Made by a program: the position numbers and the translations under genes. From Halorussus vallis (GTDB taxonomy: Archaea; Halobacteriota; Halobacteria; Halobacteriales; Haladaptataceae), in contig NZ_CP100000.1 in assembly GCF_024138165.1 (NCBI RefSeq), positions 682,001 through 746,000 of the forward strand: a stretch of DNA of 64,000 nt, written 5' to 3'. Positions within the stretch are counted from its first letter, which is position 1; each line of letters begins with the position of its first letter. This document shows positions 8,301-24,372 of the stretch, piece by piece. Under the pieces are notes generated by a model that saw only the letters and a program-made list of their open reading frames with translations, did no database searches and was not told the origin of the DNA.

Positions 8301-8521
8301 TGGACCGTGTAGGTTACTTGCCGGAAGTGATACCACGCGTCGTTGCCGGAGAAGAATATCTCGCCGCCTTTGGTGAACTTCTCGAAGGCCTGGAGGCGCA
8401 CCCACAGCATGAACACCATGGCGGCGCCCAACACGGGGACGTGATACCAGTCTTCGAACGCGTCGAGGACCGACCCGACCGTATCGGTGGAGTCCTCGAC
8501 CTGCTCAGTCTGCTGGCTCAT
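5339..8521 (-). CDS. aglB: Dolichyl-phosphooligosaccharide--protein glycotransferase AglB
   Basis: A 1060-residue Stt3-family oligosaccharyltransferase that moves the lipid-linked glycan onto Asn of N-X-S/T sequons on the outer face of the membrane. The N-terminal half (about residues 30-510) is multi-pass. It includes the first loop with GNDAWYH (D61), the catalytic-metal aspartate, and a second acidic-loop motif GFADHNIAEP. The soluble domain contains the hallmark WWDYG at residues 593-597. The extreme C-terminal 100 residues are unusual: an Asn/Ser/Thr/Ala-rich linker with many sequons of its own (NSS, NES, NST, NGT, NGS) and then a short hydrophobic segment LRAGLVGAFGAAAVVA. The protein is therefore longer than typical archaeal AglB. 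A TATA-like palindrome CATAAGCCTTATG at 8547-8559 lies 26-38 bases upstream of the ATG. Confidence 0.96.
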   Translation of the reverse strand: MSQQTEQVEDSTDTVGSVLDAFEDWYHVPVLGAAMVFMLWVRLQAFEKFTKGGEIFFSGNDAWYHFRQVTYTVHNWPKTMPYDPWTYFPFGTSVGQFGTLYDQLIATAALIVGLGDPSNQLIAKTLLVAPAVFGALVAVPTYFVGKRLAGRLGGLFGVVVLALLPGTFLRRGLVGFADHNIAEPLFMTFAVLAMMVALTVAERERPVYELLADRDFASLRRPLGYAVLAGVATALYLWTWPPGVLLIGIFGVFFMLKLSADYLRGVSPDHLAITGAVSMTVTGLLLLVPLGTLNPSPTKFSPLQPVLAFGVAAGCAFMAWLAREWDARDLDSRLYPAAIGGIIVAIAGVVALAAPKFFGLIRNNVIRVIGFETNAATRTIGEAQPFLSRAQPQYGIAWYDIIIQEYGLMLFTAIAAGLWMVWRAFRDDDHSAEKFLVLVWFAFLIAAAFTQVRFNYYLAVPVAVLNAYLVGQVFSWANLPSRDSLSDINGTQVVTVLLVVLLMTPVLVFPAQIGNSGNPFIDKTTTAVTTGQNTQPGAITKWDGSLDWLANSTPSEGDYANANNEAKMDYYGTYHQQDGDFSYPKGSYGVMSWWDYGHWITVEGERIPNANPFQEGADTAAKYLLAQNETRANNIIQRLGENQEDTRYVMVDWKMIEPTSKFSAPTVFNPNVSNWDFYTYVYSGLQQNQPRVSFLMKDQSYYQSQMVRLYLYHGSAVEPRPYVVDYDRISGANASKFVQEDQGANSTVVRKFPTMKQARQFVQQDGSAQIGGIGPFPNERIPALNHYRIVKQSKASGTSSQSYLRTLQGEARLLQQAGINPREMFMTSPSWVKTFERVPGATVQGTGPKNTTVTAQVRMSPVGQNGTFTYRQQAKTGADGKFTMTLPYSTTGYDNWGPKQGYTNVSVQAVGPYQFTTQGNWQNGTLHYQNATAQVTEAQVIGESQKPVNVKLTPTTYTPPNQNQSQNNSSAPPANESAPGAGNSTAPSADNSTAAGNGTAPTGNGSAATNNSSALGAPSAESAKAKPTPADALPDREETTPLRAGLVGAFGAAAVVASRD

Positions 8522-8687: not shown

Positions 8688-10154
8688 TCAGGGGAGCATC
8701 TGGTTTCGTAAATCCCGGACGACGCCGCGGGCGTCGAGGCGGATACGCTCGCTCAACATCAGCAGGACGGCGAAGTACGTCGCACCGCCGACGGCGAGCA
8801 CCGCCGCGAGGCGGAGCGCGCCGTGCGCGCCGCCGAGTTCGAGGGTGACGGCGTAGACGACGGCGGTCATCGCGAGCATGGCGACGACCTGTCGGCCCAC
8901 GTCCGCGACCGCGGCGGGCGAAACCGGTTCGTCGAGGAGGTAGAACAGCGTGGCGACGCTCGCGCCGAACGAGAACACCGTGGCCCACGCGACGCCCCAC
9001 GAGTCGTAGAGGTCCGTCAGCGGAATCGCCGTCAGGCCGTACACCGCGATGAGCAGGAACCCGCTCATCGCGTACACCCGCGGCCGGTCGGTGCCGAGGA
9101 AGAACTTCTCCAGGCCCTCGCGGTAGCCGTTCATCAGGTTCGCTATCGCCAGAACCGGAATCAGCGAGTTCGCGAGTCCGACCGCGCCGACCACCGGGAG
9201 GACGGTCGTTCCGGCGGCCGTCCCGTAGAGGGTCAACAGCAGGTCGTTGCCGATTATCGCGCCGCCGCCGACGACCGGGATGGCGAACAGGCCGGCGTAG
9301 GTGAGGATGGCCCCGAGGAGGTAGGTGGTCTCCTCGTCGTTGCCCTCGTCGGCGTGGACCGACACCTGCGGGAGCGCGACCTGCGCGAGCGCCGAGGAGA
9401 ACAGCATCGACGCCTCGGTGAGGGTGAAGACGTTCTTGTAGACGCCGGTCACGCCGGTGCCGACGAACTGGCCCAGCAGGATGTAGTCCGCGTGTTTGAA
9501 CAGTTGACTCGAGACGCTCTGGACGTAGGAGTACTTCGAGTAGTCGAGGAACTCCCGGAACATCGACCGCGAGGGGCGGGCCGGAATCACCCGCGCGAAC
9601 CCGAAGAACGAGACGCAGAAGGTCAGGAACTGACCGACGATGAGCCCCCAGATGAGCCCGTAGACGCCGAATCCGGCGACCACGAGCGCCGCCTGAATCG
9701 GGACGATGAGCGCGTACCGCCCGTTCTCTATCGCGCCGACGAGCGCGACCCGCTGTTTCCCTTCGAGGAACGCCCCCGAGAGGCGGTAGAGCCCCCACGT
9801 GAGCACGCCGAGCGGGACGAGCATCGCCGCCTCGGTGTGGAGGATACCGTTGAGGTACCCCCGGAGGGGTGCGACGACGGCCGTCAGGATTCCGACGCCC
9901 CCGAGGAGTATCAGCGTCGCGCTCGCGAAGTGCCGCGCCTCGGCCCCGCCCTCGCTCACGTTCTTGACCAGCACCGGAAACAGCCCGAACGTCGCGAGGT
10001 TGGCCGCGATCATCTGCATCCCGAGGAAGATGGAGTAGACCCCGATGCCGTCGAAGCCGAGTTCGCGCGTGAAGAAGATGGTCCCGAGGAACCCCAGAAG
10101 CGTCCCCAGGACGTTCGTGACGAACCGCTTGGAGATTTCCGCGCCGACCTTCAT
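8688..10154 (-). CDS. Lipid-linked glycan flippase (MOP/Wzx-like, AglR-type)
   Basis: A 488-residue, very hydrophobic protein with about 12-14 transmembrane segments. It opens with ISKRFVTNVLGTLLGFLGTIFFTRELGFDGIGVYSIF, the typical start of MATE/MurJ-type polysaccharide flippases. In haloarchaeal N-glycosylation loci the AglR-type member of this family is implicated in translocating dolichyl-phosphate-linked sugar. The gene starts 6 bases after the stop of the phosphodiesterase-like gene at 10161-11720, so the two are almost certainly co-transcribed, and it is followed by aglB after 166 bases. The context fits delivery of the lipid-linked glycan to AglB. It could instead act on another polymer, as the substrate cannot be read from sequence. 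Confidence 0.88.
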   Translation of the reverse strand: MKVGAEISKRFVTNVLGTLLGFLGTIFFTRELGFDGIGVYSIFLGMQMIAANLATFGLFPVLVKNVSEGGAEARHFASATLILLGGVGILTAVVAPLRGYLNGILHTEAAMLVPLGVLTWGLYRLSGAFLEGKQRVALVGAIENGRYALIVPIQAALVVAGFGVYGLIWGLIVGQFLTFCVSFFGFARVIPARPSRSMFREFLDYSKYSYVQSVSSQLFKHADYILLGQFVGTGVTGVYKNVFTLTEASMLFSSALAQVALPQVSVHADEGNDEETTYLLGAILTYAGLFAIPVVGGGAIIGNDLLLTLYGTAAGTTVLPVVGAVGLANSLIPVLAIANLMNGYREGLEKFFLGTDRPRVYAMSGFLLIAVYGLTAIPLTDLYDSWGVAWATVFSFGASVATLFYLLDEPVSPAAVADVGRQVVAMLAMTAVVYAVTLELGGAHGALRLAAVLAVGGATYFAVLLMLSERIRLDARGVVRDLRNQMLP

Positions 10155-10160
10155 ACGAGC

Positions 10161-11720
10161 CTACTCCAGGTACCCCAGTTCGCGGAGTCGGTCCTTGACC
10201 TCGCCCTCCTTCTCGTCGTCCCCGACGACGCCGCCGGCGGTGACGGCGTCGGCGCCGACGAACTCGTAGGTTTCGGGTTCGCGTTCGGCGGGGTCGCTCC
10301 CCTCGGCGAACACGTCGAGGACCTCGCCCGTCATCGACTCGGGCAAGCGGTAGCCGAGCGCGTGGAGCACCGTGGGCGCCACGTCGGTGATGGTCGCGCC
10401 CTCGATTTCGCCGGTCCGGAACGAGGGGCCGCGCGCGAGGAAGATGCCCTCGCGAGCGTGGCCGCTGGTGTCGACCTCGAACAGCGGTTCGTCGACGTCG
10501 AACCGCGAGGAGGCGTGGACCTCCGGCGTCTCGATAATCATGGCGAGGTCGGGCGTGTGCGGCCCGCCGCGGTCGAGGCGCTCGAACCGGACGTCGAGGT
10601 CCGCGTCGGCGGCGGCCTCGCGGAGCGCCGACTCCGCGCGACCGCACACCCGGTCGACCTCGGCGGGGTCGTCGGCCAGCGCGTAGACGAGCGTCGTCTT
10701 CTGGCCGACGTCGGCGACGGCCTCGGTGCGGTTCCAGTCGATGCGGCCCTTGCTCAGGGCGTTGTCGAGTCCGAGGTGGTCGCCGGTCGGCACGCCGGTG
10801 AGCGCGCTCTCGGGGACGAGTTTCCGGGCCAGCGTCAGCAGTCCGACCCTGCCGAGAACGTCGCTCGCGACGTCGCGGGCGGTACCCATCGCTTCCTTCT
10901 TGGCGTCGCCGGACTCCGAGAGGGTGACCAGTCCCGCACGGCGAAGGACGAGGTTCGCCGCGAACTTCGCGCGAACCTTCTCGAAGCCGTGGTCGCTCAT
11001 CACGACGAGGTCCTCGTCCTCGTGGGCGTCGAGGAACTCCCCGAGTCGCTCGTCGACGCGCCGGTAGACCTCGAACAGCGGATTGTCCGGGGAGGCTGGC
11101 GGAGTGGCGTCGGGCCCCCAGAAGTGGTGGGCCACACGGTCGGTCGCGCGAATCAGTCCCACCGCGAGGTCCGGGTCCTCCTTTTGGATGAAGTGTTCGA
11201 ACCCCTCGAATCGCTTGTCCACGAGTTCGAGGCTCAGGTCCACGTAGTCGCGCGAGTCGGTCGGCCGGTCGTTGCGAAGTTTGTAGCCGTCGACGAGGTC
11301 GGTGAGTTCGTCCCACCGCTCCGGCGGGTGGGCGTACTCGTCCTTGTACTCGGGGGCGGCGGCGATTATCGTGCCGTCGATGGCCTGCCAGGGGTACGAG
11401 CCCGGGATGTTGAACACGACCGACCGACCGCCCTGGTCGTCGACCGCGTCCCACATCTTGCCGGGGACGAACTCGTCGTGGCTCAGGTCGTTCCGCCGAG
11501 TCTCGCGGTTGAAGTGGGTGAACCCGTACATGTCGAGCGTCGGCGGCGCTCGTCCGGTGGCGAACGCGGGCCACGCGGGGACCGTGATCTCGGGAACCGT
11601 ACTTTCGAGGTCGCCGTGGACGCTCTCGTCCAGCAGGCGCTCGAACGCGGGAAGTTCCCCGGCTTCGACCCACGGCTCGATGAGCGAGAACGTCGCGCCG
11701 TCGAGTCCGAGGAGTATCAT
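10161..11720 (-). CDS. Alkaline-phosphatase-superfamily phosphodiesterase-like protein (AP-1)
   Basis: A 519-residue member of the type I phosphodiesterase/nucleotide pyrophosphatase group. Metal and catalytic positions are visible: D7 in LLGLDGATF, the presumed nucleophile T46 in EITVPAWPAFATG, RATDRVAHHFWG (Asp and His ligands), VVMSDHGF, and the late TDVAPTVLHALGY. No signal peptide or membrane anchor is seen, so it looks cytoplasmic. It ends in RLRELGYLE, a tail shared with its neighbours. A TATA-like element at 11741-11750 lies 26 bases before the ATG. It forms an operon with the flippase. The substrate is unknown; the locus suggests a phosphate- or sulfate-bearing sugar or lipid carrier. 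Confidence 0.85.
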   Translation of the reverse strand: MILLGLDGATFSLIEPWVEAGELPAFERLLDESVHGDLESTVPEITVPAWPAFATGRAPPTLDMYGFTHFNRETRRNDLSHDEFVPGKMWDAVDDQGGRSVVFNIPGSYPWQAIDGTIIAAAPEYKDEYAHPPERWDELTDLVDGYKLRNDRPTDSRDYVDLSLELVDKRFEGFEHFIQKEDPDLAVGLIRATDRVAHHFWGPDATPPASPDNPLFEVYRRVDERLGEFLDAHEDEDLVVMSDHGFEKVRAKFAANLVLRRAGLVTLSESGDAKKEAMGTARDVASDVLGRVGLLTLARKLVPESALTGVPTGDHLGLDNALSKGRIDWNRTEAVADVGQKTTLVYALADDPAEVDRVCGRAESALREAAADADLDVRFERLDRGGPHTPDLAMIIETPEVHASSRFDVDEPLFEVDTSGHAREGIFLARGPSFRTGEIEGATITDVAPTVLHALGYRLPESMTGEVLDVFAEGSDPAEREPETYEFVGADAVTAGGVVGDDEKEGEVKDRLRELGYLE

Positions 11721-11760
11721 GTGCGCCGGGACGGGGTCGACCGCTAAAAGGGGTTTGGTC

Positions 11761-13362
11761 CTACTCCAGGTAGCCCAGGTCCGAGAGCCGCCGAGCCACG
11801 TCGCCGTCCTCGGTCGACTGCTGGGCCGCCGGTTCGTACTCGGGGTAGGCCGTCGGTTCGACCGAGTCGACGGCCGCCAGCGTCTCGCCGTCCATCTCCT
11901 CGTCGGGGGCGACGCCCAGCGTCGACAGCACCGTCGGCGCGACGTCGAACAGGTGCGCGCCCGAGAGGTCGGCGTCCGGAGAGACGCCCTCGCCGGCGAC
12001 GGCGACGACGCCCTCCAGTTTGTGGTTCCACGGTTCGGGGTCGCCGAACCGCTCGCCGACCAGCGCCGACAGCGAGTGGTCGAAGTCGGCGGGAATCGCC
12101 AGCACGTCGACCGCCTCGTCGGCGTAGGGGCCGCTGATGTGCTCCTCGCGCGGGACGACCTCGTCGAAGACGGGGCGTCCCTCGGGCGTGGTCGCGGTCG
12201 TCAACAGCGAGATGATCTCGTCGCGGACGCCCTCGTACTCGCTCTCGGGAACCACGCCGTCGGGGTCGCGACCCTCGACGTTCAACCGCACGCCCAGTTC
12301 GGACGGCGAGCGCAGGTACGCCTTCGACCGGCGGAAGTCCACGGCGTCGCTGGCGGCGAACACCGCACTCACGGGCACGTGTCTTCCGACGAACTCGGCG
12401 AGGCCGAGCCGTTCGAGCGCGGCCTTGCCCCGCTGGTAGGTCAGGCCGAATCGGGCGGCGGTCGTGGCGATTCGTTCGAGGAGGTCCGTCTCCGAATCGC
12501 CCCGGCCGTCCTCGGTCAGTCGCTCGTCCTTTATCTGGAACCACGAGGGGACGCCTTGGCCCTCGGTCGTCGTCTCGACCGCGCCCGCATCGCGCAGGAA
12601 CTGGTTAATTCGAAACTCGTAGCCGTCGTACTCGCCCATGCCGTGGTCACTGGCGACGACCACGGTGTCCGGGTCGCACTCGTCGAGAATCATTCCGACT
12701 TGCTCGTCGACGCGCCGGTAGACCCGCCGGACCTTCTCGTTGTCGCCGGGGAAGTCGTGGAACACCGCGTCGGTCTTCTGGAACTGGACGAACCCGAAGT
12801 CGGGGTCGGACTCCTCGGCGAGGTACCGGAACGCCTTCCCCCGCATCTCGGTGAGTTCGAGGTAGTCTTCGAACTTCGCGTCGCCCGCCCGCTCGTCGGT
12901 TTCGCGGCGAGCGTACACGCGGTAGTCGCCGACGGCCTCGCGCACGTCGTCCAGGACGCCCGCGGGGTGACACGGCGGATTCTCGGGGGCGAGATAGCCG
13001 GGGATGACGGCGCCGTCTATCTCTGGCGGCGGACTCGTCACGGGCGCGTTGACGACGACGCTCGTCAGTCCTGCCTCGTCGAGGTACTCCCAGAGGGTTC
13101 GCCGTCGGACGTCGGTCGCGTTGACGATGTCCCAGTCGTAGCCGTCGAACCGCAGGAAGTCGAAGACGCCGTGCTTGCCGGGGTTCGTCCCGGTGTACAG
13201 CGACGGCCACGCGCTCGCGGTCCACGGCGGAATCTGGGATTCGAGGGGACCGGCCGCGCCCTCCTCGAAGAGCGACCGGAGGTGCGGCAGTTCGTCGTCC
13301 TCGAAGAGCGGTCGGAGGACCGGAAAACAGGCCGCGTCGAGTCCGACCAGTAGCGTCTGCAT
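11761..13362 (-). CDS. Alkaline-phosphatase-superfamily phosphodiesterase-like protein (AP-2)
   Basis: A 533-residue paralogue of AP-1 and AP-3. It has D9 (LLVGLDAAC), the likely nucleophile T48 in PPWTASAWPSLYTG, the conserved NPGKHGVFDFLRF stretch, FQKTDAVFHDF, VVASDHGMGEYDGYEF and a C-terminal DVAPTVLSTLG. It ends in RRLSDLGYLE. The start at 13362 (MQTLLVGLD) is chosen because homologues begin at this motif and because a TATA-like GCTTTAAGC (13386-13394) lies 28 bases upstream; the open frame extends further but only as low-quality arginine-rich sequence. No signal peptide is seen. Its stop lies 40 bases before the start of AP-1. The substrate is unknown. Confidence 0.85.
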   Translation of the reverse strand: MQTLLVGLDAACFPVLRPLFEDDELPHLRSLFEEGAAGPLESQIPPWTASAWPSLYTGTNPGKHGVFDFLRFDGYDWDIVNATDVRRRTLWEYLDEAGLTSVVVNAPVTSPPPEIDGAVIPGYLAPENPPCHPAGVLDDVREAVGDYRVYARRETDERAGDAKFEDYLELTEMRGKAFRYLAEESDPDFGFVQFQKTDAVFHDFPGDNEKVRRVYRRVDEQVGMILDECDPDTVVVASDHGMGEYDGYEFRINQFLRDAGAVETTTEGQGVPSWFQIKDERLTEDGRGDSETDLLERIATTAARFGLTYQRGKAALERLGLAEFVGRHVPVSAVFAASDAVDFRRSKAYLRSPSELGVRLNVEGRDPDGVVPESEYEGVRDEIISLLTTATTPEGRPVFDEVVPREEHISGPYADEAVDVLAIPADFDHSLSALVGERFGDPEPWNHKLEGVVAVAGEGVSPDADLSGAHLFDVAPTVLSTLGVAPDEEMDGETLAAVDSVEPTAYPEYEPAAQQSTEDGDVARRLSDLGYLE

Positions 13363-13432
13363 GTCTGGGTCCAACCGACGAAACCGCTTAAAGCTGCTTT
13401 TCCTCCGTCGCCGCGGCGGTTCGCGGGCGTCG

Positions 13433-14896
13433 CTATTCGAGGTATCCCAGTTGGCGGAGGTTCCGCTCGACCCCCTCGCTGTAATCGGCGTCGCCGTCGC
13501 CGCCGGCGCCGTCGAACTCCGCGCCGAGCGTCGAGACGAGGCGGTCGCGGAGGTCCTCGACCACCGCCGGGTCGGGGTCGTCCACGACCGTCTCGCCGGG
13601 GAGTTCGTAGAGGCGTTCGCTCCCGTCCGACCGCAGTTCGAACCGGTACTCCTCGGTGCGGACCGACTTCCGGCCGAGTTCGAACTCCCGGCGCGTGGCG
13701 GCCGACACCTCGGCGGCGGCCTCCCGGTCGGCGAGGTCCGAAGGCGCTTCCGCGGCGAAGACGGCGTCGCGGCGCTCGTCGCCGAACAGTGAGTGCCCGC
13801 GCGTCTCCGGTGCGTCGAGGTCGCAGAGGTCACAGAGCGTCGCGAACACGTCGACGTGAGAGACGAGGTCGTCGCGGCGCTCGCCGGCGGGGACGCCCGG
13901 ACCGGCGACGACGAACGGGACGCGCGTCAGTTCGTCGTAGAGGAAGTTGCCGTGGTAGAGTCCGCCGTGTTCGCCAAAGAGTTCCCCGTGGTCCGAGGTG
14001 AGGACGACGACGGTGTCCTCCAGCAGTCCCTCGCGCTCGAACCACTCGAAGAAGGCGTCGAGTCTATCGTCGAGGTACGCGAGCGACGCCGCGTACCACG
14101 CCTTGAGCGCGTCGAGTTCGGTGGCCGAGAGCGATTCGCGGTCCTCGAAGTACCGCATGGCGATACTGACCGACCCGGCCCCGTCGGCCGCCGCGAACAG
14201 TCGGTCGTCGTCCACGTCGTCGTGGTCGAATCGCCCCGGTGAGTCGAGCAACTCCTCGACCAGCGGAACCGCGGGTCGGGAGAGTTCGGGCGTCGCGGCC
14301 CGCTTGTACGGCCGCGGCGGGTCGTAGGGCGCGTGGACGGTCGTCACGTTCGCCATCGCGAAGAAGGGCTCGGCGGAACCGCCGAGCCAGTCGCGCAGGC
14401 GGTCGAACTTGATTTCGGTGTAGTAGTCGTTGCCCCGCCGGAGGAGTCGCAGGAAGTCGTTCCTGACGAGCGGGTCGGTCACCAGTTGCCGGAAGAACGC
14501 CGGCGACGGCCGCTCGGCCACTTCCTCGTACACCTCGTAGTACTCCTCGAAGCCGCGGTCGAGTCCGGTCGCCGAACCCATCTTGGCCGGGCCGGGGATG
14601 CCGTAGGTTCGGTAGCCGCGGTCGGCGAACCACTCCGCGAGCAGCGGGACCGACTCGGGCATGGTCGGCCACGCGCCCTCGAATCCGGTTTCGGGCGGGT
14701 AGAGCCCGGAGAACAGGGTTCCGTGGGAGGGCGGCGTCCACGGGCCGACCGCGAAGGCGTTCTCGAAGACGGTCCCGCGGTCGGCCACCCGGTCGAAGGT
14801 CGGCGTCTTCACGGGGAACGCCCCTTCGTAACAGGTGAGCGCGTCGGCGCGGAGTGTGTCGAAGACGAGAAGCAGGACGTTCGGGCGGTCGGGCAT
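13433..14896 (-). CDS. Sulfatase-fold protein with Thr at the nucleophile position (S-1)
   Basis: A 487-residue sulfatase-fold protein. Metal ligands are visible in LLLVFDTLRADAL (D13) and in VVLTSDHGELFGEHGGLYHG, followed by RVPFVVAGPG. The nucleophile region reads PWTPPSHGTLFSGLYP, with T54 where formylglycine sulfatases have the Cys or Ser of C/S-X-P-X-R; the Arg is also missing. It is therefore more likely a phosphatase, phosphodiesterase or phosphotransferase than a formylglycine sulfatase. It ends in NLRQLGYLE. No signal peptide is evident. The promoter is divergent from the GT4 gene at 14987, with a TATA-like ATAAATGC at 14921-14928. Automated annotation would probably call it sulfatase. 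Confidence 0.82.
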   Translation of the reverse strand: MPDRPNVLLLVFDTLRADALTCYEGAFPVKTPTFDRVADRGTVFENAFAVGPWTPPSHGTLFSGLYPPETGFEGAWPTMPESVPLLAEWFADRGYRTYGIPGPAKMGSATGLDRGFEEYYEVYEEVAERPSPAFFRQLVTDPLVRNDFLRLLRRGNDYYTEIKFDRLRDWLGGSAEPFFAMANVTTVHAPYDPPRPYKRAATPELSRPAVPLVEELLDSPGRFDHDDVDDDRLFAAADGAGSVSIAMRYFEDRESLSATELDALKAWYAASLAYLDDRLDAFFEWFEREGLLEDTVVVLTSDHGELFGEHGGLYHGNFLYDELTRVPFVVAGPGVPAGERRDDLVSHVDVFATLCDLCDLDAPETRGHSLFGDERRDAVFAAEAPSDLADREAAAEVSAATRREFELGRKSVRTEEYRFELRSDGSERLYELPGETVVDDPDPAVVEDLRDRLVSTLGAEFDGAGGDGDADYSEGVERNLRQLGYLE

Positions 14897-14986
14897 ACTC
14901 GTTTCGAGGTCCTCCGGAGAATAAATGCTTTAGCTTCGCCGCCGTCGAACGGGGGTTTTAAACGGTCTGCGGCCGCCCCCACCGAC
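14897..14986. promoter_or_regulatory. Divergent promoter between S-1 and the GT4 gene
   Basis: A 90-base intergenic region with a TATA-like element for each side: 14921-14928 for the leftward gene (about 27 bases before its ATG) and TTTTAAA at 14956-14962 for the rightward gene (about 28 bases before its ATG). Both spacings predict leaderless or near-leaderless messages. Confidence 0.6.
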
Positions 14987-16021
14987 ATGGACCCCGACGC
15001 CGTCCGCGTGGCGATGCTCCACCAGGACCCGCACCCGGCCCACCGCGGTTTCGCCGAGGCGGTCGGCGCCGACCTCGTCGACTACCACCGCCTCGGCGCG
15101 GGACCGTTCGAGGGTACCGTGGCCGAGGACGCCCTCAACGGTCTGGCGTACCCGAACTACGACGTCTACCTCGTGGAGGGGTCGCGGCCGCTGTACGCCG
15201 CGCTCGCCCGTCGGTTCACCCGCGGGGGGAAGTTGGTCTACCTCTGTGCCGACCACGGCCTCTACGAACTCGGCAGCGCCGACTTCGAGGGCGACTCGCT
15301 CGCGAAATCCCTCGTCGGGAAGTTCGGCACCCCGGCGGTCAGAGCGGTCGGCCGCCGCGGCATCGACGGCGTCGTCGCGGTTTCGGAGTTCGCCGCGGAG
15401 TTCACACGCCCGGTCGTCGGTCCCGACGCGCCGATAGAGGTCGCCCACCCGTTCATCCAACCGGAGAACTACGAGGCGCTCGGCGACGCGGACCCCGACC
15501 TCGACTCGAACGTCGCGGTGACGGTCGCTCGCCCGTGGCGGTACAAGGGCGTCGACATGCTGGTCGAAGCGTGGCCCCGCGTCCGCGAGGAGTTCCCCGA
15601 CGCCGAACTCCACGTCGTCGGCGGCGGCCACCCCGAGTCGTACGGCGAGACGCCGGGCGTCAGAGTTCGGGGCTACGTCGAGGATCTCGCCGACGCGTTC
15701 GCCCCGGCGTCGCTGTTCGTTCAACCCTCGCGGATGGACACCTTCCCCGTCAGCACCCTCGAAGCCATGCGGGCCGGACTGCCGCCGCTGGTCACCCGAA
15801 CGACCGGGACGCGCTCGGAGGCGCGGGAGATCGACGAGTCGCTCGTCGTCGAAACCAACACCTACGCGCTCTCCCGCGGCGTCCGGGAGTACTTCCACCG
15901 TGACGCCGACGAACGCCGCGAGTTCGCCGACCGCGCTCGCGAACGCGGCGCTCGGTTCGACCCCGCCTCGCGGAAGGCGGCGTTCCGCAAGGCGTTCCGG
16001 CGAGTTCTCAAAGCACTTTAA
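14987..16021 (+). CDS. GT4-family glycosyltransferase
   Basis: A 344-residue GT-B fold glycosyltransferase. The C-terminal half has the usual GT4 donor-site layout: VTVARPWRYKGVDMLVEAWP, then ELHVVGGGHPE, and the donor loop PSRMDTFPVSTLEAMRAGLPPLV, in which Asp replaces the first Glu of the E-X7-E motif. The start at 14987 (MDPDAVRVAMLHQDPHPAH) is chosen over a long upstream in-frame extension that runs antisense to gene S-1. It begins 90 bases from the divergent S-1 gene and is followed 24 bases later by AP-3, whose TATA box overlaps the end of this gene. It probably adds an internal sugar of the surface glycan; donor and linkage are unknown. Confidence 0.87.
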   Translation: MDPDAVRVAMLHQDPHPAHRGFAEAVGADLVDYHRLGAGPFEGTVAEDALNGLAYPNYDVYLVEGSRPLYAALARRFTRGGKLVYLCADHGLYELGSADFEGDSLAKSLVGKFGTPAVRAVGRRGIDGVVAVSEFAAEFTRPVVGPDAPIEVAHPFIQPENYEALGDADPDLDSNVAVTVARPWRYKGVDMLVEAWPRVREEFPDAELHVVGGGHPESYGETPGVRVRGYVEDLADAFAPASLFVQPSRMDTFPVSTLEAMRAGLPPLVTRTTGTRSEAREIDESLVVETNTYALSRGVREYFHRDADERREFADRARERGARFDPASRKAAFRKAFRRVLKAL

Positions 16022-16045
16022 TCTCGGCGGGGCGAGTACCCGCAC

Positions 16046-17602
16046 ATGACCGTCTACGTCGTCGGCCTCGACGGGGCCGACTGGTCGCTGCTGCGGCCCT
16101 GGGCCGAGGAGGGCCACCTCCCGGCGTTCGCCCGCGTGCTCGACGGCGGCGTCGCGGGCGACCTCCGGAGCACCCTCCCGCCGGTCACCTTCCCGGCGTG
16201 GAAGTGCTACTCGACGGGCAAGACCCCCGGCAAACTCGGCGTCTACGAGTGGTTCGCCTACGACCGCGCGACGAACGAGATATCGGCCAACGACGCGAGC
16301 GACTTTCGCTCCCGGGAGTACTGGGACGTCCTGGCCGAGAGCGGCCGGCGAGCGGGCGTGGTCAACATGCCGACCACGCATCCGCCGAAGATGGACGCCG
16401 ACGCCCCCGAAGGCGTCCTCACTATCGCCGGGAGTCCCGCGAGCGAGCGCAAGCGGTTCACCAGCCCCGAGTCGCTGAAGGACGAACTGCTGGCCGAGAT
16501 TCCCGACTACCGGGTCAAGCCCGACCTCGTGCTCGACCAGGCGACCCCCGACGAACTGGTCGCGGAGGCCCGGTCGCTGTTCGAACAGCGGTTCGCGGCG
16601 GCGACGTGGCTCGCCGACGAGAAGGACTGCGACCTCGTCCACACCACGCTCTTCGCGACCGACACCCTCCAGCACCGGCTCTGGGACCGCCCGGAGAAGC
16701 TTCGCGCGGCGTACGAGCGCGTCGACGAACTCCTCGGGGACCTGCTGGACCGCGACGACGCCGAGGCCGTCTTCCTGATGAGCGACCACGGCTTCACCGG
16801 AATCGACGAGATCTTCCTCGTCAACCAGTGGTTGCTCGAACGCGGCGACCTCGCGGTCGAGGAGTCCGAGTCCCGGGACCTGCTGGCGACCATCGGATTG
16901 ACCGAGGAGCGACTGAAGCGACTGGTCGGCGAACTCGGCCTCGTCGGCCTCGCCCAGTCGCTCGTCCCCGAGTCCGTCCAGCGGTTCTTCCCGAGCGAGA
17001 GCGGCCGCGTGGCGATTCAGGACGCCGCCATCGACTGGTCGCGGACGAAGGCGGTTTCGCTCGGTCGCGGTCCGGTGTACGTCAACCGCGGCGCCTTCCC
17101 GGACGAGGCGGCGGCCGACGAGTACGCCGCGGCCCTCGCGGCCGACCTCGAATCGCTCGAAACGCCGGCGGGCGACCCCGTAGTCGCGGAGGTTCACGAC
17201 CCCGCCGAAATCTACACCGGCGACCGCGCGCGCGGCCCGGACCTGGTGGTCGAGTACGCCACCGGCGTCGACGCGCCGGAAGCCATCGGCGGAGGCGTCT
17301 TCGGCGAGACGACCGAGTGGCTGGCGACCCACCGCCGGTCGGGCGTGTTCGCCGCGCTGGGCGACGGCGTCGGAACCGGAACCGCCGACCTCGACCTCTA
17401 CGACCTCGCGCCGACCCTGCTCCACTACCTCGGGGCGGCGGTCCCGGAGGACGTCGACGGCGAGGTGCGCCGCGACGCGCTGGCCGGCGAGGCAGCCGAG
17501 CGCGACGTCGAGTACGGCCCGCCGACGGCGACCGAAGCGGCCGGGGCGGGCGCCGGCGAGGAAGTCGAGGACACGCTGCGCGAGTTGGGGTATCTGGAGT
17601 GA
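16046..17602 (+). CDS. Alkaline-phosphatase-superfamily phosphodiesterase-like protein (AP-3)
   Basis: A 518-residue paralogue of AP-1 and AP-2, closely matching their N-terminus: VVGLDGADWSLLRPW with D9, the probable nucleophile T48 in PPVTFPAWKCYSTG, then KTPGKLGVYEWFAYD. Later motifs are FATDTLQHRLWDRPE, VFLMSDHGFTG and DLAPTLLHYLG. It ends in TLRELGYLE. A CTTTAATC at 16016-16023 lies about 27 bases before the ATG, so the message is probably leaderless. No secretion signal is seen. Transcription is in the same direction as the GT4 gene. It may act on a nucleotide-sugar, dolichyl-linked or phosphoglycan substrate; none can be chosen from sequence. Confidence 0.85.
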   Translation: MTVYVVGLDGADWSLLRPWAEEGHLPAFARVLDGGVAGDLRSTLPPVTFPAWKCYSTGKTPGKLGVYEWFAYDRATNEISANDASDFRSREYWDVLAESGRRAGVVNMPTTHPPKMDADAPEGVLTIAGSPASERKRFTSPESLKDELLAEIPDYRVKPDLVLDQATPDELVAEARSLFEQRFAAATWLADEKDCDLVHTTLFATDTLQHRLWDRPEKLRAAYERVDELLGDLLDRDDAEAVFLMSDHGFTGIDEIFLVNQWLLERGDLAVEESESRDLLATIGLTEERLKRLVGELGLVGLAQSLVPESVQRFFPSESGRVAIQDAAIDWSRTKAVSLGRGPVYVNRGAFPDEAAADEYAAALAADLESLETPAGDPVVAEVHDPAEIYTGDRARGPDLVVEYATGVDAPEAIGGGVFGETTEWLATHRRSGVFAALGDGVGTGTADLDLYDLAPTLLHYLGAAVPEDVDGEVRRDALAGEAAERDVEYGPPTATEAAGAGAGEEVEDTLRELGYLE

Positions 17603-17651
17603 TTCGACATACCCAAATAGTAGCCCGAGCACCACTCGCGGTGAGATTCGA

Positions 17652-18569
17652 ATGACGTTCGGCGACTGGCTCTCGGACACGCGCGAACGCGTCGGCCGTG
17701 ACGGCTCCCAAGGGATGAAAGAGAGCCTTCGAGAGCTGTGGGTCGGTGCGCTCCGGCGAACCGACGGCCTCTATTCGGGCGGCGAACACGTCTTCGAACG
17801 CGATTGGGACGTACTGATTCTGCTCGACGCCTGTCGGGTGGACCTGATGCGCGAGGTCGCCGACGAACACGCCTTCCTCGACGGTCCCGATACGCTCACC
17901 TCCGTCGGCAGTTCTTCGATACAGTGGATGGAGCGGACCTTCACCGAGGAGTACGCCGAGGAGATGCGCGAGACGGCGTACGTCACGGGCAACCCGTTCA
18001 GCAAGCGCGTTCTGAGCGAGGACGACCTCCTCGCGCTCGACGAAGTGTGGCGCTACGGCTGGGACGACGAAACCGGCACGATTCCCGCGCGGAACGTCAC
18101 CGACCGGGCCATCGCCGCTGGCCGCGAACGCGACGCCGAACGGCTGATCGTCCACTACATGCAACCGCACTTCCCGTCGGTTCCCGAACCGCTCACCGAC
18201 GGCATGAACGCGGACACGCTCGGCGACGGCGAAGGGTGGGACTCGCCGTGGCACCGTCTGCGACGGGGCGAACTCGACCGGGAGACGGTGTGGTCGTCGT
18301 ACCGAGCGAACCTCCGGTACGTCCTGGAAGACGTGGCGCTGCTGCTGGAGAACGTAGACGCCGACCGCGTCGTCATCAGCGCCGACCACGCCAACGCCGC
18401 CGGCGAGTACGGCGTGTACGGCCATCCGAAGATTCCCCTGCCGGTCATCCGCACGGTGCCGTGGTATCGGACGAGCGCGACGGACGGCGGGAGCTACGAA
18501 CCCGAGTTCGAACCGCAGGCCGAACGCGGAGACGTCGAAGAGAAGTTGGGCGCGCTCGGCTACCTCTGA
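17652..18569 (+). CDS. Compact alkaline-phosphatase-superfamily-like protein
   Basis: A 305-residue protein, much shorter than its five relatives in this locus. It keeps a metal-site-like DWDVLILLDACRVDLM near residue 55 and VVISADHANAAGEYGVYGHP near residue 235, and ends in EKLGALGYL. The expected Thr-Pro nucleophile segment is replaced by TSVGSSSIQWMERTF, so the nucleophile is either one of these serines or absent. Long insertions found in the relatives are missing. It follows AP-3 by 49 bases in the same direction and converges with S-2. A weak TATA-like ACCCAAATAG is at 17611-17620. It could be a degenerate, non-catalytic partner or a distinct small hydrolase. Confidence 0.72.
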   Translation: MTFGDWLSDTRERVGRDGSQGMKESLRELWVGALRRTDGLYSGGEHVFERDWDVLILLDACRVDLMREVADEHAFLDGPDTLTSVGSSSIQWMERTFTEEYAEEMRETAYVTGNPFSKRVLSEDDLLALDEVWRYGWDDETGTIPARNVTDRAIAAGRERDAERLIVHYMQPHFPSVPEPLTDGMNADTLGDGEGWDSPWHRLRRGELDRETVWSSYRANLRYVLEDVALLLENVDADRVVISADHANAAGEYGVYGHPKIPLPVIRTVPWYRTSATDGGSYEPEFEPQAERGDVEEKLGALGYL

Positions 18570-18609
18570 CCTTTCGAAGTCCATCAACCTCGAACGACGG
18601 TCGTCGAGA

Positions 18610-19980
18610 CTACTCCATGTACCCGAGGTCCTTCAGGTGCTCGGCCACCATCTCCTCGTCCTCGTCGACGCCGTGCGAACCGCCCTCGCGCATCTGCTTC
18701 ATCCGCTCTCGGTGGTCGTCGAGCGCGGCCGTCAACTCCTCGAACTCGCGAACGTCGTCCGCCGAACGGTCGTCCTCCGGTCGCTCGTCGGGCGTCTCCC
18801 GCACGTTGAAGCGGAACTCGCCGTCGTCGCCGTGCCGCAGGAGTTTCCAGCCGTCGGCCCGCCGAGCGCTACACCGGGCGTAATCGACGTGCCTACCAAC
18901 GTCGGCGAAACTGTACTCGCGGGCGTCGACCTCGCCGTCGGCGAGGTCCCAGGCGGACTCGCCCTCCCAGCCGTCGAACGCGTCGAGGCCGAGCGCGTCG
19001 GTGACGGTCGGCGGAAGGTCGACGAGTCGGGTCTGTCCCTCGACGGCCGCCGCTTCTCGGTTGGGGTGGTGGACGACGAACGGGACGCGGAGGACGCCCT
19101 CCCAGAACTCCGGCGGGTGGCCGGCGTGGCGGTGTTCGCCGACGAGTTCGCCGTGGTCGGCGGTGAAGACGACGAGGGTGTCGTCCAGCAGGTCGCGGTT
19201 GTCGAGCGCGTTCAGTACCTTGCCGAACTGGTCGTCGACGTAGGCGCACTCGGCGTCGTAGAGCCTTCGAATCAGCTCCCACTCGCGGTCGGTCACCTCC
19301 TCGGGATGGTGGGTGCCCTTCCGAGAGAGGCCGCGACACCGCGCGAGGTCGAGCGGTTCGTCCAAGAACTGTCGCTGGAACTCCTCGGGCGCCTCGTAGG
19401 GGTGGTGGGCGTCCATGTAGTGGAGCCACGCGAACCACTCGCCCGACCGGTCGTCGATCCAGTCGAACGCACGCCGGTTGAGCGACTCGGCGCGCTCGTA
19501 CTCGCTCTCGTTGCCGGTCGCGGTGGCGAACGCGGCGTCGACGCGGTTGTACACCCGCTCGATGGTCTTGAACAGCGTCCCCTCCTTGTCGAGGTTCGAC
19601 TGGACGAACTGCTTGAGTTTGCCCGCCTCGGTCGTGCCGCTGGCGTCGTGCATCACCGAGAAGCCCCGGTCGTAGTGGTACGACCCGCTGGCGAAGTGGT
19701 TGTCCGTGTAGCCCGCGGTGGCGTACCCCGCGTCGCGGAGTCGCTCGGCGAGCGTCTGAATGCCGTCGTCGGCGCCGGGTTCGGGGATGCCGAGTCCCTC
19801 GATGCTCGCGAAGTACCGACTCGCGTGGATGGACGGGAACGACGCCGGCGTCGACGGGCCGTTGGCGACGCACTCGGTGAACTCTACCGCCCCGTCGGCG
19901 AACGACCGAGTTTCGGGCATCACCTCCGGATCCACCCGGTCGGCCCGGAGCGAGTCGACGGTGACGAGGAGGACGTTCAT
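18610..19980 (-). CDS. Sulfatase-fold protein with Thr at the nucleophile position (S-2)
   Basis: A 456-residue sulfatase-fold protein: LLVTVDSLRADRV with D9, nucleophile region GPSTPASFPSIHASRYF with T44, and VVFTADHGELVGEHRHAGHPPEFWEGVLRVPFVVHHP. As in S-1, the Cys/Ser and Arg of the sulfatase signature are missing. It ends in HLKDLGYME. The start at 19980 (MNVLLVTVDS) is preferred over an upstream in-frame ATG because the family begins here and a TATA-like GTTTTAACC (20001-20010) lies 26 bases upstream. Most similar in layout to S-1, with which it probably shares a reaction type. Substrate unknown. Confidence 0.82.
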   Translation of the reverse strand: MNVLLVTVDSLRADRVDPEVMPETRSFADGAVEFTECVANGPSTPASFPSIHASRYFASIEGLGIPEPGADDGIQTLAERLRDAGYATAGYTDNHFASGSYHYDRGFSVMHDASGTTEAGKLKQFVQSNLDKEGTLFKTIERVYNRVDAAFATATGNESEYERAESLNRRAFDWIDDRSGEWFAWLHYMDAHHPYEAPEEFQRQFLDEPLDLARCRGLSRKGTHHPEEVTDREWELIRRLYDAECAYVDDQFGKVLNALDNRDLLDDTLVVFTADHGELVGEHRHAGHPPEFWEGVLRVPFVVHHPNREAAAVEGQTRLVDLPPTVTDALGLDAFDGWEGESAWDLADGEVDAREYSFADVGRHVDYARCSARRADGWKLLRHGDDGEFRFNVRETPDERPEDDRSADDVREFEELTAALDDHRERMKQMREGGSHGVDEDEEMVAEHLKDLGYME

Positions 19981-20067: not shown

Positions 20068-21108
20068 CTACTCGTACGCCGCCAGCACGCGCTCGGTCAC
20101 CTCGTCCCAGGTCGGGAGCGGCGCGTCGGGCGCGTCGCGCCCGACCGCCGCTCTGGCGGCCCGGGCCACCGCTTCGGGCGCGACCGACGAGACGCCGACG
20201 CAGTCGCCGCGGTCGGCCCAGTCGACCAGCGCGCCCGCCTCCCGGACCACGCACGGCGTGCCGGCCGCGAGCGACTCCGCGACGGTCATCCCGTAGGACT
20301 CGAACGCAGAGAGCGTGAGGTAGGCCGCCGCGCCGGCGTACAGCCCCGGAAGTTCCTCGTCCGCGACGAATCCGAGGAACTCGACGCGGCCAGCGACGCC
20401 GGCGTCGCGGGCCGCGCGCTCCAGTTCCTCGCGGTAGTCGCCCAACCCGGCAACGAGGAGGTCGTACTCCGGGAGCGCATCGAGCGCGCGAATCGCGTGC
20501 TGGACGCCCTTGTACGCCTCCAGTCGGCCGACGCAGAGCAGATAGGGCCGGTCGCGCTCCGCGGGGATCGCGTCCTCGAATCGCCCGACGTCCAGACCGT
20601 TGGGAATCACGGCGGCCGAGACGCCGAAGTCCTCGCGGAGGCGGTCACGCTCCCACTCACTGACCGCGACGACCTCGTCGGCGCGGCGGAGCGCCCACCC
20701 GCCGAGAGGTCGGTACAGCGAGAGCAGTCGGTCCCGGAAGCCGCTAGCGCTCCCGCCGTGGTAGTGTGGCGTCACGACCAGTCGAGTGCGGGCGCCCGCC
20801 CCGAGCGCGGCGAAGAACGCGGGCAGAGAGTGGTAGTTGTGGGCGTGAACCACGTCGGGATTCGCCCGTCGAACCGCCCGGACGACGCCGGGCGCGACGT
20901 GGAACGCGCCGCCGGGCGCGAACCCGCGGAACCGCCGCACGTCCACGCTGTTCCGCGTTTCGCGTCGGGACACGTCGCCGCCCGCGTCGGCCGCGAAGAC
21001 GGTGACCTCGTGGCCGCGGGCGACCATCCGCTCGGCGAGTTCGGAGACGTGCGTTTCGACGCCGCCGGCGTGCGGCGGGTAGCGCGGCGTCACCTGGAGT
21101 ATCCGCAT
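20068..21108 (-). CDS. GT4-family glycosyltransferase
   Basis: A 346-residue GT-B fold enzyme with a full GT4 layout: the N-terminal acceptor domain opens MRILQVTPRYPPHAGGVETHV, with PDVVHAHNYHSLPAF; the C-terminal donor domain has LLCVGRLEAYKGVQHAIRAL, then the loop LSAFESYGMTVAESLAAGTPCVV carrying the E-X7-E motif. It begins 3 bases after the stop of the GT2 gene at 21112-22254, so the two are translationally linked. This pair probably builds successive residues of the surface glycan. Sugar donor and acceptor cannot be predicted. Confidence 0.9.
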   Translation of the reverse strand: MRILQVTPRYPPHAGGVETHVSELAERMVARGHEVTVFAADAGGDVSRRETRNSVDVRRFRGFAPGGAFHVAPGVVRAVRRANPDVVHAHNYHSLPAFFAALGAGARTRLVVTPHYHGGSASGFRDRLLSLYRPLGGWALRRADEVVAVSEWERDRLREDFGVSAAVIPNGLDVGRFEDAIPAERDRPYLLCVGRLEAYKGVQHAIRALDALPEYDLLVAGLGDYREELERAARDAGVAGRVEFLGFVADEELPGLYAGAAAYLTLSAFESYGMTVAESLAAGTPCVVREAGALVDWADRGDCVGVSSVAPEAVARAARAAVGRDAPDAPLPTWDEVTERVLAAYE

Positions 21109-21111
21109 GAG

Positions 21112-22254
21112 CTACTCGAACGCCTCGCGCAACTCCTCGTCGACCTCCCAGGTCCCGTCGCCCTCGCCGCGCAGGAGCGCGACCGACGCGTTCAGCAACG
21201 ACACCTGCGAGTCGAGGATGGCGTAGAGCGCCTGTAACGGTCCCAGGAGGTCCTTCTGTCCGAGCCAGACGAACCCGCCGAGCGCGACCGGAACCGCCAG
21301 TCCGGCCCAACCGGCGACCGAAACCGCGGCCGCCGTGACCGCGAGCACGTCGAGCGCGACGAGCCACGGCGAAATAACCATGAACCACCAGTTGAACGGG
21401 AGCACCAGCTTTCCGTAGTTGCCGTACTTGCCGAGCGCGTCGCGATGTTGGGCGAGCAGACGAATCAGGCCCATCCCCCGGCGGTCCTTCTGCAGACGCC
21501 GCTTTCCGAAGTCGGAGTGGGAGGCTTCCTTGTACCGGACCGCGGGGTCGAAGACCACGCGGTCGCCGCCGCGGCGGATCTTCAGCGCGAGTTCGGTGTC
21601 GTCGGCCAGCGAGTTCGGGTCGATGGGGACGATGGCGTCGTTGTCGAACGCCGAGAACGGACCGTGGAAGATGAGCGTCGAGTCGAGGTGCGATTCGAGC
21701 GTCTGGATGTGGGCCTGCACGCCCCGGTAGCCGGCTTCGACCTCGCTTCCGCCGAGGACCTCGGCGTTCTGTCCCGTCACGGCGGCCACGTCGGGGTCGG
21801 CGAGGTTCGCGGCGGCCTGCCGGAGCGCGTCCGGCGCGACGTAGGAGTCGCAGTCGGTCTTGACCACCATCTCGTTTTCCGCGGCCGCGTAGGCGTCGTT
21901 GAGCGCGGGTGCGAGGCCGCGACGCTCCCGCTCGCGGATGAGGTTCAGTTCCGGGTACTCGCGGTCGGCGAAGTACTCCTCGATGAGTTCGGGCGTCTCG
22001 TCGTCCGAGGAGTCGACGACGACCAGTTCGACCTTCTCCATCGGGTAGTCGAGCGCCAGCACGTCGTCGAGTTTCTTCTCGATGATGCCCGACTCGTTGT
22101 ACGTCGGGAGCACGATGCTGGCAGTCGGTTCCGCGTCGCGCTTGTCGGCCGGCGAACCGCTCGGTCGAACCGCGGCGTAGAGCGCGAGGTACGCGAGGTA
22201 CGGCAGGGCCGTCACGGCGACGAGGGCACCTGCGGCGGCCACCAGGGAGTCCAT
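21112..22254 (-). CDS. Membrane-bound GT2-family glycosyltransferase
   Basis: A 380-residue GT-A enzyme. One N-terminal membrane segment (residues 3-27) precedes the catalytic domain with SIVLPTYNESGIIEKK, VVVDSSDDET, VVKTDCDSYV (the metal-binding D-X-D type motif), ADDTELALKIRRGG, and QKDRRGMG at the site of the processive-type QXXRW motif. Two or three membrane segments follow (near residues 270-335). The layout is that of cellulose-synthase-like glycosyltransferases acting on lipid-linked or membrane-proximal acceptors. A TATA box GTTATAATT at 22275-22283 lies 25 bases before the ATG, so this gene heads the operon with the GT4 gene. Confidence 0.9.
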   Translation of the reverse strand: MDSLVAAAGALVAVTALPYLAYLALYAAVRPSGSPADKRDAEPTASIVLPTYNESGIIEKKLDDVLALDYPMEKVELVVVDSSDDETPELIEEYFADREYPELNLIRERERRGLAPALNDAYAAAENEMVVKTDCDSYVAPDALRQAAANLADPDVAAVTGQNAEVLGGSEVEAGYRGVQAHIQTLESHLDSTLIFHGPFSAFDNDAIVPIDPNSLADDTELALKIRRGGDRVVFDPAVRYKEASHSDFGKRRLQKDRRGMGLIRLLAQHRDALGKYGNYGKLVLPFNWWFMVISPWLVALDVLAVTAAAVSVAGWAGLAVPVALGGFVWLGQKDLLGPLQALYAILDSQVSLLNASVALLRGEGDGTWEVDEELREAFE

Positions 22255-23155: not shown

Positions 23156-23466
23156 TCGTACCGTATTGGATGTCGGGAACTTTCCCATCGATGACGTGCA
23201 ACCAGAGATATATATAACATTCGTCGGTTCTCATCGCTGATAACTGACGGCGCGAGCGACCGCCGGAACGTAACTCTTTCGAGAATCCCCGACGGGGGAG
23301 CGGGACGGTCCGGTGATGCTCCAACTATTTCTGACACGTCGAATGAGCGCAGACGGCAAGGCAACGCGGGTGACGTAAAGTTTAAATTTTAGAGGTGTTC
23401 GTCGAGGGTGGTCGCCGCGCCTCGATAGGTAAGCCTTTTGCGCACGTGGCAACCTACTCCCTCTCG
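23156..23466. promoter_or_regulatory. Divergent control region between archaellin and aglJ
   Basis: This 311-base region has no credible gene. The archaellin TATA box is 23207-23217 (GATATATATAA as read on the plus strand). For aglJ there are two candidates: the AT-rich TTTAAATTTT at 23381-23390, giving a leader of about 50 bases, or a weaker TAAGCCTTTT at about 23427-23436, giving an almost leaderless message. The middle (23240-23370) shows nothing recognisable. Confidence 0.6.
23207..23217 (-). promoter_or_regulatory. TATA box of the archaellin gene
   Basis: An 11-base alternating TA tract, unusually AT-rich for this genome, 52-62 bases before the ATG at 23155. It predicts transcription start near 23183 and a leader of about 28 bases. 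The strength of the element fits a highly expressed structural protein. Confidence 0.7.
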
Positions 23467-24372
23467 ATGGCCGACCGCGAGGACGTATGCGTACTCGTTC
23501 CGACGCTGAACGAAGCCGAAACCATCGGCGAGGTGATCGACGGCTTCAGGAGCCGCGGGTTCGAGAACGTCCTCGTGGTCGACGGCAACTCGACCGACGG
23601 CACCGAAGACGTGGCCCGCGAACACGGCGCGCGCGTCGTCAAGCAGTCGGGCACCGGCAAGGGCCAGGCGATTCGCGAGGCGCTCCAGTACATCGAGGCG
23701 GAGTACGTGCTGATGCTCGACGGCGACGGCACCTACCGACCGGAGGACGCCGAGGCGATGCTCGAACCGCTGTTCTCGGGGCGGTACGAGCACGTCATCG
23801 GCGACCGCTTCGCCGACATGGAGGAGGGCGCGATGACGCGACTCAACCAGGCCGGCAACGGGATGTTCAACTGGGTGTTCCGCAACATCCACGGCCGGGA
23901 CTTCCAGGATATCCTCAGCGGCTACCGGGCGTTCACCCGCGAGTCGGTCGACAACTTCTACCTCGACGCCGACGGCTTCGGCGTCGAAACCGAGATGGCG
24001 GTCGAGTGCGTGAAACACGGCGTTCCCACGAAGGTCGTCCCCATCCGCTACGAGGCCCGTCCGGACGAGTCGGACACCAACCTCCACCCGATACACGACG
24101 GCGGCGTCATCCTGCTCACGCTCTACCAACTGGCGAAGACGAACAACCCGCTGTTCTACTTCGGGAGCGTCGGCCTGCTGAGTTCGCTGTTCGGCGTTCT
24201 GGTCGCCGCCTACGTCGGCTACGAGTGGTTCGGGCCGGCCAACACCTCCCACGAGGTGCTGGCGGTCGTCTCGGCGTTCGCCATCCTGTTCGGCGTCCAG
24301 TTGCTGATGTTCGGCGTGCTCTCGGACATGATCGTGACGCTCCACCGCGAGCAGATGCGGCGACTCGACTGA
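23467..24372 (+). CDS. aglJ: Dolichyl-phosphate hexosyltransferase AglJ
   Basis: A 301-residue GT2-family enzyme matching AglJ, which in Haloferax adds the first hexose to dolichyl phosphate on the cytoplasmic face. Catalytic-domain motifs: CVLVPTLNEAETIGEVIDGF, VLVVDGNSTDGT, VLMLDGDGTYRPED (D-X-D), and ILSGYRAFTRESV. Two C-terminal membrane helices follow (near residues 225-285), with a basic end. The start at 23467 (MADREDVCV) is chosen by alignment with the family's usual beginning; the frame is open 72 bases further upstream but that segment crosses the promoter. With aglB and the flippase in the same locus, it marks the start of the N-glycan pathway. Confidence 0.92.
   Translation: MADREDVCVLVPTLNEAETIGEVIDGFRSRGFENVLVVDGNSTDGTEDVAREHGARVVKQSGTGKGQAIREALQYIEAEYVLMLDGDGTYRPEDAEAMLEPLFSGRYEHVIGDRFADMEEGAMTRLNQAGNGMFNWVFRNIHGRDFQDILSGYRAFTRESVDNFYLDADGFGVETEMAVECVKHGVPTKVVPIRYEARPDESDTNLHPIHDGGVILLTLYQLAKTNNPLFYFGSVGLLSSLFGVLVAAYVGYEWFGPANTSHEVLAVVSAFAILFGVQLLMFGVLSDMIVTLHREQMRRLD

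Follow-up and report, generated by a model that had tools for sequence, protein, structure and literature searches.

A conserved C-terminal LGY tail common to alkaline-phosphatase-superfamily, CysD-like, and ribbon-helix-helix proteins suggests a docking element for sulfate activation and transfer in archaea

The six alkaline-phosphatase-superfamily (AP) proteins encoded at 10161-19980 in a window of Halorussus vallis DNA (the whole stretch of 64,000 nucleotides analysed in this study) all end in a tail of the type V-x-x-R-L-x-x-L-G-Y-[L/M]-(E). This tail is a real, strongly conserved, and portable C-terminal element, by which AP enzymes are connected with a CysD-like protein and with ribbon-helix-helix (RHH) proteins. 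Its best single reading, held here with moderate confidence, is docking: a portable tail by which the proteins that activate and transfer sulfate in archaea would bind a common partner. No earlier description of the LGY tail was found in the literature searched.

The AP locus of Halorussus vallis

The six proteins are designated AP1 to AP6 and are listed below with their neighbours.

5339..8521, minus strand: AglB-type oligosaccharyltransferase (by sequence reading and family knowledge)
8688..10154, minus strand: polysaccharide flippase-type membrane protein (by sequence reading; seed of the flippase profile)
10161..11720, minus strand: AP1, PF01663-type AP-superfamily protein, 519 aa, tail EVKDRLRELGYLE at about 10164-10202
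11761..13362, minus strand: AP2, PF01663-type, 533 aa, tail DVARRLSDLGYLE at about 11764-11802
13433..14896, minus strand: AP3, PF00884 sulfatase-fold, 487 aa, with Thr (PWTPPSH), tail VERNLRQLGYLE at about 13436-13471
14987..16021, plus strand: GT4-type glycosyltransferase among the AP genes
16046..17602, plus strand: AP4, PF01663-type, 518 aa, tail VEDTLRELGYLE at about 17564-17599 (AlphaFold model m03efd2bd99a7)
17652..18569, plus strand: AP5, short AP-like protein without a Pfam family, 305 aa, tail VEEKLGALGYL at about 18534-18566
18610..19980, minus strand: AP6, PF00884 sulfatase-fold, 456 aa, with STPAS, tail VAEHLKDLGYME at about 18613-18648
20068..21108, minus strand: GT4-type glycosyltransferase
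21112..22254, minus strand: GT2-type glycosyltransferase
23395..24372, plus strand: GT2 of the AglJ/dolichyl-phosphate hexosyltransferase type (family by sequence reading)

The original prediction had described six AP-superfamily proteins with a common LGYL tail, interleaved on both strands with AglB, flippase, GT4, and GT2 genes. All six open reading frames were found, each with the tail and with the neighbours as described; the starts of AP2 and AP6 were corrected to 13362 and 19980, respectively. The tail form given at that time, L-X-X-L-G-Y-L/M-E, holds as L-G-Y-[L/M] in all six (AP1 KDRLRELGYLE, AP2 ARRLSDLGYLE, AP3 ERNLRQLGYLE, AP4 EDTLRELGYLE, AP5 EEKLGALGYL, and AP6 AEHLKDLGYME), but the final E is not constant.

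In Pfam, the Phosphodiest family matches AP1, AP2, and AP4 and the Sulfatase family matches AP3 and AP6, all above cut-offs; AP5 has no Pfam match and a weak NCBIfam STM4013 match only. The metal motif is SDHG or ADHG in AP1-AP4 and AP6, and ADHA in AP5. Judged by profile and DHG metal motif, AP1-AP4 and AP6 belong to the AP superfamily and the assignment of AP5 is weaker; in the tree, AP5 groups with other AP-like proteins of about 300 aa. No Cys-type formylglycine motif (C/S-x-P-x-R) occurs at the nucleophile of AP1-AP6, where PWTPPSH (AP3) and STPAS (AP6) are found, and no transmembrane helix, signal peptide, or hydrophobic segment was detected in any of the six. Since they lack both formylglycine motifs and hydrophobic segments, AP1-AP6 are not classical exported sulfatases. 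The order of the gene block and its tails are kept in Halorussus, Natrinema, Haloterrigena, Haloferax, and Haloprofundus, with AP5 and AP6 outside the fetched stretch at several loci. Archaellin-like genes lie near tail-bearing AP genes at two places in the genome (window 22424-23188 and L038:16324-16998).

Conservation and distribution of the tail

At the DNA level, LGY[LIVMF]E* is matched five times in the window, each time in one of the six AP genes; 100 shuffles gave a mean of 0.00. The longer pattern LxxLGY[LIVMF][DE]* is present in 55 of 59 haloarchaeal genomes, and the reversed control pattern gave 2 hits. In an alignment of 20 Phosphodiest-type APs, mean pairwise identity is 67% over the last 12 columns, 33% in the core, and 16% in the linker; the V, L, L, G, and Y of the tail are invariant. 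In these proteins, the tail and the active site are equally invariant. The last E is variable (other copies end in -L, -R, -K, -A, or -V), and one to six residues follow the Tyr. The tails of APs and of RHH proteins conform to one position-specific consensus, also at -9 (V/I) and -6 (R), two positions that were outside the selection criteria.

In an unbiased survey of eight haloarchaeal genomes, 65 of 91 AP-superfamily reading frames carry the tail. In the H. vallis genome, tail-bearing APs occur at many further sites and a few APs are without it. Relatives of AP2 from public genomes kept the tail in 80 of the 80 fetched, the query of that scan being a set of closer-related APs and not the 20 diverse ones. 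The tail-less APs of the survey comprise an MGLFDR family, formylglycine-type sulfatases, PglZ-like proteins, iPGM, one tandem array, and a few others. The formylglycine motif of the tail-less sulfatases is clear in L276, L277, and L279 and variant in L295; the suggestion that LGY endings occur in known sulfatases was not borne out in this survey. One or two copies per haloarchaeal genome of the MGLFDR-start family were noted (L001, L246-L255, L383:4320-5642); one copy (G008) adjoins the CysD-like gene, and the relative in L383 adjoins an RHH-tail gene.

The tail is found in both main AP clades of a quick tree, in which alignment between the clades is poor. Subject to the same poor cross-clade alignment, tail state requires seven changes on the tree, at least four of which are forced by well-supported branches. 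Matches to APs in a tblastn search of plasmids were almost all haloarchaeal; one Nostoc AP in a glycan locus, found by that search, is without the tail. An LGYID ending on an eIF6-like protein was judged to be due to chance.

Tail-bearing APs are typical of AglB loci, yet they are also found beyond them. The AglB regions of nine genomes contain 11 APs within about 19 kb, none of which lacks the tail; a counter-example is the AP without a tail near an AglB-type gene in L341. With home-made profiles, a glycosyltransferase, AglB, or flippase gene was found within 6 kb at 39 of 60 tail-AP loci chosen by the pattern, and at 8 of 20 unbiased tail-AP loci versus 3 of 20 tail-less ones, a difference which alone is not significant. 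Because 12 of these 20 unbiased tail-AP loci have none of the three within 6 kb, a tail exclusive to glycosylation loci is rejected, and by the refuting condition that the original prediction had set, its locus-specific reading is not supported.

Carriers outside the AP superfamily

The tail is also present on a CysD-like protein and on RHH proteins, which the original prediction had missed. Among the non-AP genes called in the fetched haloarchaeal loci, the motif stands at the end of 21 of 2,513: 19 small proteins, one CysD-like protein, and one glycosyltransferase, whose LSFFGYRPD ending was judged to be due to chance. Most of the 19 small proteins had been fetched by the motif; the CysD-like protein and the glycosyltransferase had not been so selected.

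The CysD-like protein of H. vallis (C1:3332591-3333559; L419:1360-2331) ends in ERAGRAQDKEDLMERLRDLGYM (MERLRDLGYM), and it is found in 58 of 59 haloarchaea with the alignment reaching the last residue. Against PRK05253 it scores 79.6 bits (E 2e-22) versus a cut-off of 195, and since this lies below the curated NCBIfam CysD cut-off it is named ‘CysD-like’ only; L391, for comparison, passes the CysD model with 339.7 bits. It also matches structure 1zun_A. Escherichia coli CysD and 1zun have the C terminus ER.GR..D....ME.....GY[FM] in common with the haloarchaeal protein; therefore, such an ending is a feature of the CysD family as a whole. CysD, the small subunit of sulfate adenylyltransferase, is a PP-loop enzyme; the APs have only their last dozen residues in common with it, and the CysD ending may resemble the AP tail independently. 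A search of the H. vallis genome found neither an ATP sulfurylase (PF01747) nor a convincing APS kinase, which makes the CysD-like protein of special interest.

The 19 small haloarchaeal carriers fall into three groups, of which two are RHH proteins and the other is a family of small helical proteins. The members of this family, of about 70 aa and without a known domain, end in the tail (L099:6001-6213, L116:5812-6027, L126:5803-6027, and L154:5815-6027). PF01402 matches 10 of the 26 members of the RHH set, and the 69-aa protein of H. vallis is above the cut-off; a 76-aa protein of L045 has no Pfam hit on its own and is assigned to RHH by alignment only. The RHH query had few matches in plasmids. 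A gene for a 69-aa RHH-tail protein lies near an AglJ-type GT2 gene, often together with a UDP-sugar dehydrogenase (UGDH) gene, in about nine haloarchaeal genomes (loci L100, L101, L114, L130, L138, L143, L147, L148, and L153), and haloarchaeal RHH-tail genes are near AglJ/UGDH-type genes rather than sulfate genes.

Beyond haloarchaea, the tail pattern finds mainly RHH proteins ending in KVKERLRALGYLD. At 21 of 24 such loci, which are not independent since 16 are from one family, the RHH-tail gene adjoins an AP, Sat, CysC, CysD plus CysN, or PAPS reductase gene. The gene order is RHH, AP, CysC in L395 and RHH, CysD, CysN, AP in L390 (L390:4366-7313). At L395:3114-4999 and L396:5967-7867, an AP gene without the tail is directly followed by an APS kinase gene. 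The gene orders of these three loci suggest that AP enzymes use activated sulfate beyond haloarchaea too.

Several tail-less APs have a tail-bearing protein beside them. In H. vallis and Halorussus halophilus, a GT2 gene is followed by a gene for an RHH-like protein of 73-76 aa ending in VVEDRLEQLGYLEK and then by a tail-less AP gene. Comparable pairs of an RHH-tail gene and a tail-less AP gene occur in the Archaeoglobus-type loci L395 and L396, in L383, and on a Haloprofundus plasmid. The tail-less APs of H. vallis, Halorussus, and the Archaeoglobus-type loci form one group in the tree (support 88). An adjacent tail protein is absent for most other haloarchaeal tail-less APs.

Structure models

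In the AlphaFold model of AP4, the core has pLDDT mostly above 90, residues 497-503 are below 50, and a C-terminal helix (499-513) is at about 56-71. The confident core is predicted to be NPP-like, its best fold matches being phosphonoacetate hydrolase and nucleotide pyrophosphatases (2gsn, 1ei6, and ENPP1), with a Thr nucleophile and a DHG metal motif by alignment. Identity to these three is only about 11-17%, and the match is confined to the core. No enzyme in the NPP/phosphonoacetate hydrolase branch is known to have such a linker and tail. The model favours a tethered element over a plug, low confidence being no proof by itself. In the model of the RHH protein (pTM 0.46, whole-model pLDDT 74), the two blocks have pLDDT 84 and 74 and a separate C-terminal helix is predicted at 52-64; two plasmid-derived rows were excluded from the RHH structure set.

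The CysE tail bound by CysK is a short C-terminal docking peptide of sulfur metabolism that is mimicked by unrelated proteins. The LGY tail is likewise a short C-terminal peptide. CysK binding, however, needs a fixed C-terminal residue and its carboxylate, whereas one to six residues follow the Tyr of the LGY tail. Therefore, a CysK-like insertion of the C-terminal carboxylate is ruled out by this variable distance.

Possible function and mechanism

Zaretsky et al. (2025, mBio, PMC11980604) showed that Agl30 (VNG1056C) and Agl31 (VNG1057C), two AP-superfamily proteins of the aglB cluster of Halobacterium salinarum, sulfate the N-linked glycan, by deletion and by C-terminally tagged expression in Haloferax volcanii; Agl30 is a membrane protein, and Agl31 is soluble and cytosolic. 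AP1-AP6 likewise are AP-superfamily proteins of an aglB-anchored cluster, with AglB at 5339-8521 and the flippase adjacent, and, in keeping with the soluble Agl31, they show neither a signal peptide nor a transmembrane helix. The Agl7 protein of Haloferax volcanii has a part in the sulfation of a dolichol-phosphate-linked sugar (PMC3871713). Because Agl30 and Agl31 sulfate the N-linked glycan, AP1-AP6 are best read as candidate cytosolic glycan sulfotransferases; phosphotransfer or phosphodiesterase activity is possible. Of the modifications of the glycan or its dolichyl carrier proposed earlier (phosphate, sulfate, or phosphodiester groups), sulfate is the one supported by the Halobacterium enzymes. 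The text available on them makes no mention of a tail on Agl30 or Agl31; if they have one, the activity of the C-terminally tagged proteins means that a free C-terminal end is not needed.

A possible scheme can be described as follows. A flexible acidic linker would join a C-terminal docking helix (V-x-x-R-L-x-x-L-G-Y-[LMI]) to the core. The tail would mark AP-fold group-transfer enzymes, the universal CysD-like protein, and the RHH proteins of sulfate-activation operons. In the cytosol, the six APs would modify glycans, most likely as sulfotransferases like Agl30 and Agl31. They may act on the dolichol-phosphate-linked glycan prior to flipping, and the tail may keep them at a shared receptor, or in contact with one another's tails, near the source of activated sulfate. 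A more elaborate form of this scheme is tentative and, on the whole, somewhat unlikely. It assumes a sulfation complex in which the tail docks many AP-fold sulfotransferases, the CysD-like activator, and RHH proteins on one receptor or on each other; activated sulfate would be handed to the glycan-modifying enzymes without diffusing away, and an enzyme without a tail may receive it in trans from an RHH protein.

Docking as the function of the tail, on a putative receptor, is argued for by the 67% identity of the tail behind a flexible linker and by the consensus common to AP and RHH tails. The CysD-like carrier, the RHH genes beside sulfate genes, the tail-less APs beside a tail protein, the small number of non-AP carriers, the sulfotransferases Agl30 and Agl31, and the tail on every AP in the AglB regions point in the same direction. 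Against it stand the genome without PF01747 or a convincing APS kinase, the lack of an adjacent tail protein at most haloarchaeal tail-less APs, the AglJ/UGDH-type neighbours of haloarchaeal RHH-tail genes, the non-independence of the 24 RHH loci, the activity of C-terminally tagged Agl30 and Agl31 (if these have the tail), and the possibly independent origin of the CysD ending.

Alternative explanations

Those AglJ/UGDH-type neighbours, together with the 11 of 11 AglB-region APs and the 39 of 60 pattern-chosen loci, would suit a tail whose docking partners are glycosyltransferases or the dolichol machinery and not the proteins of sulfate activation. This is unlikely, since the unbiased comparison (8 of 20 versus 3 of 20) is not significant alone, the carriers beyond haloarchaea accompany sulfate genes, and the CysD-like protein carries the tail. 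More doubtful still is convergence, in which a generic helix C-cap without a common function would have been reached independently in unrelated families. Protein endings of the helix-Gly-hydrophobic kind are common, the APS kinases of L395 and L396 end in a helix plus GLI or GFM, and the RHH profile weakly matches the C terminus of a PDB APS kinase (E 1.4); however, there are almost no further carriers among the 2,513 non-AP genes, gene neighbourhood links the carriers, and the positions outside the selection criteria agree.

The original prediction had offered a structural plug and a shared docking partner as two readings of the tail. An intrinsic element that packs on the AP core as a plug or cap, without a partner, would be in keeping with the very high conservation of the tail in APs, but it appears improbable: the AlphaFold model disfavours a plug, with the tail following a variable linker at pLDDT below 60, many intact APs are tail-less, and RHH and CysD-like proteins bear the tail without an AP core. 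The shared docking element is the better of the two, given the variable, low-confidence linker and the tail on a separate small protein beside several tail-less APs. A similarly small probability is assigned to a recognition signal for a protease, a chaperone, or an RHH regulator that sets the enzyme level. RHH proteins with the same tail are indeed encoded beside the same enzymes, and the position is extremely C-terminal, but a distance of one to six residues from the Tyr to the end is unusual for a C-terminal degron.

Implications

Overall, the docking reading suggests that the tail is a previously undescribed plug-in tag of proteins that activate and transfer sulfate. Haloarchaeal genomes each encode from a few to about 20 or more ‘sulfatases’ or ‘alkaline phosphatases’, mostly without known function and probably misnamed. 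If the reading is true, one tail would group most such enzymes with sulfate activation and would be a practical predictor of sulfotransferases. It would then become possible to test directly where the sulfate of archaeal glycans comes from and how it is delivered, and the tail would represent a docking motif that spans unrelated protein folds.
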